Assembly (NCBI GenBank): GCA_946406145.1
Contig: CAMJJL010000003.1
Coordinates: forward strand, 17,395-81,394
Direction of reading: 5' to 3'
Origin: an uncultured Clostridia bacterium
GTDB taxonomy: Bacteria > Bacillota > Clostridia > Oscillospirales > Acutalibacteraceae
DNA length: 64,000 bases
Below are positions 39,845-51,441 of this stretch, one piece after another. A program made the position numbers and the translations under genes. How positions within the stretch are numbered: the stretch's first letter is position 1; each line of letters begins with the position of its first letter. Under the pieces are notes generated by a model. That model was not told the DNA's origin, did not search any database, and saw only the letters and a list, made by a program, of their open reading frames with translations.

Positions 39845-39877
39845 TAGGATGAAGGGAGTTGAACTCTCTTCATCCTA
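39845..39877. repeat. 33-bp near-perfect palindrome, solo form of the 49246-49625 element ends
   Basis: TAGGATGAAGGGAGTT g AACTCTCTTCATCCTA, 15 of 16 pairs. Confidence 0.75.
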
Positions 39878-49245: not shown

Positions 49246-49626
49246 TAGGATGAAGGGAATTGAACTCAATTGCCGATAATGAGTCATTTTCAGTCTTTAT
49301 CGGCTTATCGTCGATCGCAACCCGTCAGATCGTCGTCACGCGCCGTACTCGTTGAGAGCGTTCAAGTGTGACCGCTCTCGTACTCGTGTGGCGATTCCTC
49401 CTCTCCCCAAAAAGATGACTTTTTGGGGACCCCATTGACTCCTCTGCACCGAGAAATCCATGAAAATGATCTCATTCTCGGTGCGAAGCAGTTGATAGCG
49501 AGTAGTTTTTTGTCTGATCGAGGAAAAACCGGAGTGAATACTGGCGTATTCACGAGGATTTTTGACGAAGAGCAGGCGGAAATATACCGCTATCAACCAA
49601 TTGGGGTTCAACTCTCTTCATCCTAG
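49246..49626. mobile_element. About 380-bp element with terminal inverted repeats and five internal hairpins
   Basis: TAGGATGAAGGGAATTGAACTCAATTG ... CAATTGGGGTTCAACTCTCTTCATCCTA; hairpins at 49272-49304, 49354-49379, 49405-49428, 49446-49484, 49534-49553. Confidence 0.7.
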
Positions 49627-49718
49627 GTTTTTGGTTCTGTTTTTTAGTAGCTTTAATTATAGATTATCAATTTCATAAAATCAAGATAAATATTACCTAA
49701 AATTCGTCGATTTTTTGA

Positions 49719-49747
49719 TTGACTTATTAGTGACAGGGGAGTAAAAT
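49719..49747 (+). promoter_or_regulatory. Candidate promoter of mgtE leader
   Basis: TTGACT 49719-49724, 17 bp, TAAAAT 49742-49747. Confidence 0.55.
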
Positions 49748-49836
49748 AGTATTACTGTTGAGAGAGGGTGTAACCCTGTATGTGACAGAATCCACTTAAT
49801 GAAAGAGGCGAGAGAATGGACACCGGAAGTACGAGC

Positions 49837-50030
49837 GGCACTGCAGGAGGGCGACGATGTGTCAAGTATTGCGGTACGAATGACGAGGGGGTACGGTTTT
49901 CAGTTAAAAGCAGATAAACAGCGAGCTGACGGGCATTTTGAATGAACGCCCGATCCGCGGCGCTTTTACACGACTTATCTGTTTTTCACTGAAAATCGGC
50001 TGTGTCCGCAATACTCCCTTCAACAGTGCC
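49837..50030 (+). promoter_or_regulatory. Long imperfect inverted repeat in mgtE 5' leader
   Basis: GGCACTG/CAGTGCC; AGTATTGCGG/CCGCAATACT; GGTTTTCAGTTAAAAGCAGATAA/TTATCTGTTTTTCACTGAAAATC, nested in the correct order. Confidence 0.65.
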
Positions 50031-50061
50031 TCCGCGATCCCAAAACGTAGGAGGTTATTTT

Positions 50062-51441
50062 ATGGAAAGGAATTCAGTGAGCTTGTTCGAGACGATCCAG
50101 ACCCTGCTCGATAACAAGCGCTATTCCACCCTGCGCGACATCCTCAACACGATGAATCCCGTCGATATCGCGGCGGTATTCGAGGATCTGCAGAGTGAGA
50201 AGACGGCTCTGCTGTTCCGACTGCTGCCCAAGGAAACGGCTGCCGAGACCTTCGTCGAGATGGACGAGGAGACCCAGCAGCTCTTGATCCACGGCTTTTC
50301 GGATACGGAGCTCAAAGAAGTCATCGATGAGCTGTATGTCGATGACGCGGTCGACCTGATCGAGGAGATGCCCGCGAATGTGGTCAAGCGAATTCTCCGA
50401 CAGGCTGATCCCCAGACAAGAAAAGAGATCAACGAAATATTGAAATATCCCGAGGACAGCGCCGGGTCGATCATGACGACCGAGTGCGTGATTCTCCGTC
50501 CCAAGATGACTGCGGAAGAGGCGATCAAGCGTATCCGCCGCACCGGTATCGACAAGGAGACCATCTACACCTGCTATGTGTCGGATTCCTCCTCCACGCT
50601 GATCGGTATCGTCACCATCAAGACGCTTCTGCTCAGTGATGATGACGAGGTCATCGAGAACATCATGGAGACCAACGTCATCTCCGTCAACACCCTCGAC
50701 GACCAGGAAGAGGTCGCCCAGATGTTCAACAAATACAATTTCCTCGCTCTGCCTGTTGTCGATAAAGAGAACCGCCTGGTCGGTATCGTCACGGTCGATG
50801 ACGCGATCGACGTCATGGAAGAAGAGGCGACCGAGGATATCCAGAAGATGGCGGCTATCACGCCGACCACCGACAAGCCCTATGACCGTATCGGTGTGTT
50901 TGAGACCTATCTCGCGCGTATCCCGTGGCTGCTGATCCTGATGATCTCCGCCACCTTCACCGGTATGATCATCACCGGCTTTGAGGACGCGCTGGCAGGT
51001 TCGCTGGTACTGTCCGCTTTCATCCCGATGCTGATGGATACCGGCGGTAACTCCGGATCACAGGCGTCCGTCACCGTTATTCGTGCGCTCTCGCTGGACG
51101 AGATCGAGTTCAAGGATATTTTCAAGGTCGTCTTTAAGGAAGCGCGTGTAGCGCTGTTGTGCGGCGTTACGCTCGCCGCGGCGAACTTCGCCAAGATCAT
51201 GCTGTTCGACCGCCTTGTGCTCGGCAATACCGGCATCACCGTAGAGGTGGCGCTGGTGGTATGTCTGACGATGGTCGTCACCATCTTTATCGCCAAGCTC
51301 GTCGGCTGTACCTTGCCGATGATCGCGGCAAAGATCGGCTTTGACCCTGCCGTCATGGCGTCGCCGTTTATCACCACCATCGTGGATGCGATCTCACTGT
51401 TCGTCTACTTCCAGATCGCCAGAGCGCTGCTGAATTTGTAA
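50062..51441 (+). CDS. mgtE: Magnesium transporter MgtE
   Basis: DIAAVFEDLQSEKTALLFRLLPKETAAETF; CBS domains; MLMDTGGNSGSQASVTVIRALSLDEI; start set to 50062. Confidence 0.96.
   Translation: MERNSVSLFETIQTLLDNKRYSTLRDILNTMNPVDIAAVFEDLQSEKTALLFRLLPKETAAETFVEMDEETQQLLIHGFSDTELKEVIDELYVDDAVDLIEEMPANVVKRILRQADPQTRKEINEILKYPEDSAGSIMTTECVILRPKMTAEEAIKRIRRTGIDKETIYTCYVSDSSSTLIGIVTIKTLLLSDDDEVIENIMETNVISVNTLDDQEEVAQMFNKYNFLALPVVDKENRLVGIVTVDDAIDVMEEEATEDIQKMAAITPTTDKPYDRIGVFETYLARIPWLLILMISATFTGMIITGFEDALAGSLVLSAFIPMLMDTGGNSGSQASVTVIRALSLDEIEFKDIFKVVFKEARVALLCGVTLAAANFAKIMLFDRLVLGNTGITVEVALVVCLTMVVTIFIAKLVGCTLPMIAAKIGFDPAVMASPFITTIVDAISLFVYFQIARALLNL

Follow-up and report, generated by a model that had tools for sequence, protein, structure and literature searches.

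The stretch at 49246 to 49625 of the window (the whole 64,000-nucleotide stretch of DNA that was analysed) raises the question of whether a densely folded sequence between two genes is an RNA, a folded DNA or a decayed coding sequence. The preliminary description saw here a compact element of 380 bp with inverted ends and five independent internal stems, which looked like a multibranched RNA or a folded single-stranded DNA substrate rather than decayed coding sequence, and it named folding energy, further copies and covariation as ways to check this. All of the sequences that it quoted, for the inverted ends as well as for the five stems, lie where it placed them, except that the right end is at 49625 and not at 49626. 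The folding energy of the stretch is -165 kcal/mol, whereas 100 dinucleotide-shuffled versions give -109 +/- 5 kcal/mol (z -10.4) and none reaches the same energy. It has no coding capacity; its longest internal open reading frame, of 91 amino acids, depends on an extra module (module A) that the short form of the element lacks. The left neighbour is a minus-strand gene (48682 to about 49227), and the right neighbour is the leader of a plus-strand mgtE-like gene (about 50062-51441). This leader (49640-50060) has no match in Rfam; parts of it (about 49632-49865) show 72-93% conservation among relatives, and it may serve the magnesium transporter gene as a cis-regulatory RNA not yet described. 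The parts of the element, together with a collapsed copy elsewhere in the window, are as follows.

49246..49625, plus strand: whole element with both flanking TA, 380 bp, placed by the empty site in G012 and the match to covariance model R1
49248-49623: mobile part without the TA repeats, 376 bp
49246..49247, no strand: left TA of the duplicated target; the empty site has a single TA
49624..49625, no strand: right TA of the duplicated target; the empty site has a single TA
49246..49272, plus strand: left terminal inverted repeat, the 5' strand of end stem P1, from the sequence and the changes in P1 pairs
49273..49482, plus strand: arm P2, with a base helix of 49273-49291 with 49462-49481, from long-range covariation
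49329..49436, plus strand: module A, an extra hairpin module of ~100 nt, not present in the C18, C64 and C96 copies
49354-49379 and 49405-49428: stems of module A, the second and third of the five stems described earlier
49482..49490, plus strand: mini-hairpin P3 (TGCGAAGCA) between arms P2 and P4, kept, with a C-G/G-C exchange at one pair
49491..49597, plus strand: arm P4, a long, interrupted hairpin whose A-rich internal loops are conserved, with 39 covarying pairs
49534-49553: tip of arm P4, the fifth of the stems described earlier
49598..49625, plus strand: right terminal inverted repeat, the 3' strand of end stem P1, on the same basis as the left repeat
39845..39877, plus strand: collapsed copy, a near-perfect 33-bp palindrome formed by fusion of both end repeats (TAGGATGAAGGGAGTTGAACTCTCTTCATCCTA)

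The window copy is a recent insertion of a small mobile DNA element. The corresponding site of the relative G012 reads GTGATA-TA-GGTTTT, compared with GTGATA-TA-element-TA-GGTTTT in the window, and the element is also absent from this locus in G067, G017 and G102. A second empty site is given by L237 compared with L244 (GTAACGA-TA-TGCTCGA), where the locus reads CGGTAACGA-TA-TGCTCGACCG in one case and CGGTAACGA-TA-element-TA-TGCTCGACCG in the other, and the end-repeat subfamily differs from that of the window copy. Thus, two independent empty sites, each with a single TA as opposed to TA-element-TA, demonstrate a target site duplication. G067 carries a 380-bp copy with 99% identity at another locus, and the six copies in G099 show 0-3 differences over 279 bp, with unrelated flanks and TA at every boundary. 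TA is present on both ends in 53 of 75 non-redundant relatives, and the flank bias of these 75 is symmetric (A 4% at -2 and T 8% at +2), as a double-stranded target would give. By simple and hence approximate ORF calls, 66 of 74 copies lie between open reading frames, compared with 27% of random positions.

The 380-bp copy is not the basic unit but an element of 278 bp carrying an extra module. The closest intact relatives in the same genome (C18:25622-25898, C64:54-330 and C96:569-846, with 94-99% identity in the matched parts) are without query bases 90-199. The window copy therefore represents a long form, in which module A enlarges the tip of arm P2 of a 278-bp element. The core form of about 278 bp consists of two end repeats of ~28 nt and two inner arms of ~110 nt with the mini-hairpin between the arms. 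Three of the end-repeat subfamilies contain both long and short forms. Both hairpins of module A likewise show paired changes, and relatives of the module are found elsewhere in the genome, either alone or inside MITEs with TACTAA ends. Module A (L010-L030, L053-L056) is a nomadic structured repeat in its own right, which is also carried by the IS630-type MITEs that end in TACTAA and by elements bordered by GTCATTGCGAGGCTCC/GTGGCAATCTC. A solo palindrome similar to the one at 39845-39877 occurs in L072 (G067), and L284 1400-2000 (G214:C30) shows an apparent nested insertion of one element within the arm of another. G000 and G012 have many weaker matches of ~160 bp (e.g. G000:C5:48403-48560 and G000:C41:14524-14683), which apparently represent a shorter related element type. 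A hairpin-bearing repeat array with GATGAAGGGAATCGAAAG in L059 (G026:C20) shares with the element no more than a short end-like sequence.

Further copies are found in the genome of the window and across the order. The covariance model R1 was derived from 18 short copies and spans 277 positions. It matches the window copy at 266.8 bits (E 1e-74) and has matches, most of them along its entire length, in 55 of 199 genomes from the order, representing 30 of 111 genera and many families, with about 25 places each in G332 and G238. A degenerate pattern matched 73 stretches in 85,462 named species genomes, nearly all of them in rumen or ruminant-gut assemblies of Ruminococcus and other Clostridia; three matches in marine Bacteroidota have weak scores and are probably due to chance. 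A phage or plasmid origin found no support, as 50,697 phage records, 72,556 plasmid records and viral contigs all gave no match. Literature searches of open-licence papers found no description of the element family.

The fold is conserved among these relatives: the ends and inner arms still pair, although hardly anything of their sequence has stayed the same. From a sequence-only alignment, RNAalifold predicts a junction joining P1, P2, P3 and P4, and 51 of the 84 pairs have changes on both sides. Among 106 model-aligned matches, 82 of the 84 consensus pairs have two-sided changes, paired cells amount to 94.4% (66.3% after shuffling, 37-46% after sliding), with a covariation score of 0.683 compared with 0.175. 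The sequence-only result is nevertheless the safer one because the model-aligned set leans towards the model and includes some second-strand matches. In end stem P1, all 23 pairs vary across relatives, 22 of them on both sides. Hence folding energy, copies and covariation all gave positive results, and the preliminary description was right in seeing a compact, multibranched, folded element rather than decayed coding sequence. Its five independent stems are all present locally, but two of them (49272-49304 and 49446-49484) are not conserved pairing: they are stable locally only, with few pairs covarying across relatives, and they are excluded by the helix of about 49273-49291/49462-49481, which covaries in 11 of 16 pairs in the sequence-only alignment. 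Certain distant copies consist of two halves that are inverted homologues of each other, clearly so in L287 (68% compared with 50% when shuffled), L278 and L320, a relation lost in others, and R1 is matched by both strands in some distant copies, suggesting that the unit arose as an inverted pair.

Paired changes of this kind could also come from a mutational process, in which template switching copies one palindrome arm onto the other without selection on the fold. GC-to-CG and AU-to-UA flips are common, mismatched intermediates are few and the changes are strand-symmetric, all in agreement with such copying. However, copying alone would not hold the length near 278 bp or the junction and loop sequences, which are conserved across families, and the two arms are unlike each other in most copies, so that template switching is a rather unlikely source of the pairing.

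RNA tolerates G-U but not A-C, whereas in a DNA hairpin a G-T on one strand is an A-C on the other. In 61 non-redundant copies, the GU:AC ratio is 0.89 (0.62-1.24) in P1 and 0.84 (0.49-1.42) in P2, and both 95% intervals include 1. The 28 tRNAs from the same loci have a GU:AC count of 49:0, where the tRNA finder itself favours such pairs. G-T is therefore as common as A-C in P1 and P2, unlike in tRNA, suggesting from sequence comparison that pairing in these two helices is maintained mainly at the DNA level, which argues against an RNA gene. In P4, the ratio is 2.09 (1.46-3.17) with three conserved G-U columns left out and 4.5 with them, an excess that may reflect an additional constraint there, acting on single strands or on RNA. 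A structured non-coding RNA or an RNA processing site, mobile by chance and with selection on the fold of the plus-strand RNA, would account for the very strong covariation, the conserved loop sequences of P4 and its GU excess. Such an RNA is nevertheless improbable in view of the P1 and P2 ratios, the mixed orientation of the element relative to flanking genes and a search of Rfam 15, in which no known structured RNA matched above the gathering score; moreover, the ends are accounted for by TA-bounded mobility. Between the two possibilities raised at the outset, a folded DNA thus fits better than a multibranched RNA because the element moves and duplicates TA, and because pairing in P1 and the first arm shows strand symmetry.

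The window copy is probably a non-autonomous MITE-like DNA element, which inserts at TA and duplicates it, with a transposase acting in trans. It has terminal inverted repeats with TA ends, a duplication seen at empty sites, multiple copies and no coding capacity, as TA-type MITEs do. Three points stand against this: the end repeats vary widely between subfamilies, which is unusual for one transposase, P4 has more GU than AC, and no transposase-bearing partner was found. Searches for DDE_3, Y1, DDE_Tnp_1 and rve domains gave none within an element with matching ends, and the rve-matching open reading frames that were read resemble IS3-type OrfB. DDE_3, Y1 and DDE_Tnp_1 are all missing from G332 with its many copies. 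Searches for end-repeat pairs found no transposase-bearing element with these ends; half-element matches lie mostly at contig ends. An autonomous long form was rejected, the facing end repeats found in these searches being less than about 500 bp apart. The absence of a mobiliser is weak evidence, since the genomes are drafts, in which repeats often break contigs.

An ordinary IS630 derivative would have ends matching those of a resident IS630. IS630/Tc1 elements typically duplicate TA, and the ends of an IS630 in G086 match those (TACTAATATTC) of other MITEs that carry module A. However, no IS630 with GGATGAAG or GGGTGACAGG ends was found, and the ends of the element match no resident IS630; DDE_3 is absent from G067, G017, G012, G102 and G332, and one interior is common to eight or more end-repeat types. 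An origin from IS630 is therefore unlikely. The G086 element itself (L114 1396-2506, G086:C24), with its transposase in two frames and ends TACTAATATTCAAT, is the likely mobiliser of the TACTAA MITEs.

Least probable of all is a REPIN-like system, in which paired inverted hairpin units are mobilised by a resident Y1 (RAYT-type) transposase. The inverted homology of the halves in L287 and the matching of the model by both strands are in agreement with it, and in G327 a RAYT-like Y1 gene and a copy of the element are separated by 135 bp. But a clear copy adjoins only 1 of 20 divergent Y1 loci, G000, G332 and G238 carry copies and have no Y1 match, and TA duplication with symmetric flanks is ill-suited to Y1 insertion. 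The sole case among the 20, L351 (G327:C10), has the Y1 gene and the element copy at 1301-2065 and 2200-2478; tandem repeats whose frame reads LGVRPQKLNFL adjoin them.

For a MITE-like element moved in trans, cut-and-paste insertion at TA by the transposase is the best supported mechanism. The two arms, the end repeats and the mini-hairpin could fold into a cruciform-like structure on either strand of the DNA. This DNA fold, either extruded or single-stranded in replication, may be recognised by the transposase or a host factor, and the sequence may therefore drift while pairing is kept. That the element is recognised by its folded-DNA shape and not by its end sequence, by a transposase of an undescribed kind, is a tentative proposal, less likely to hold than to fail. 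If true, it would explain why ends and arms drift freely while the pairing and the length of ~278 bp are fixed across the order. MITEs usually have conserved ends and a free interior, whereas here it is the multibranched folding of the entire element that is conserved, in 30 genera or more, and nearly all of its base pairs covary. Dependence of bacterial transposons on DNA shape thereby becomes a testable question. The elements also provide a covariation data set in which mismatch symmetry separates DNA-level from RNA-level pairing, and a warning that intergenic covariation, even when strong, is no proof of RNA on its own.

Among known systems, REPINs are inverted pairs of hairpin-bearing units for which the single-strand fold is important, but they have no TA duplication and adjoin their RAYT gene. 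They are shorter than the element described here, in which adjacency to a RAYT gene is not the rule. RUP of S. pneumoniae is likewise non-autonomous, TA-flanked and folded, and IS630-Spn1 is its proposed mobiliser; its ends are common to the resident IS630 (PMC2229807), whereas no such partner was found here. Correia/NEMIS elements of Neisseria resemble the element in having TA at both ends, target duplication, inverted repeats of ~25 bp and two size classes set by an internal insert (PMC2229807). They measure about 107/155 bp and belong to one genus (PMC2229807), whereas the element measures 278/376 bp, is distributed across the order and has two arms with a mini-hairpin and many end-repeat types. 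BOX elements of Streptococcus, built as boxA-boxB-boxC, are short, intergenic and highly folded, with an optional self-folding inner module, and in S. suis the same inner module occurs within different outer modules (PMC3049150); the likeness is one of organisation only. Unlike BOX, the element has a fixed length of ~278 bp, a TA duplication shown by empty sites and a fold conserved by covariation across many families of the order. The element family, for which open-licence papers gave no description, is thus of a similar kind to Correia, RUP and BOX, but it is spread more broadly and its structure is conserved.
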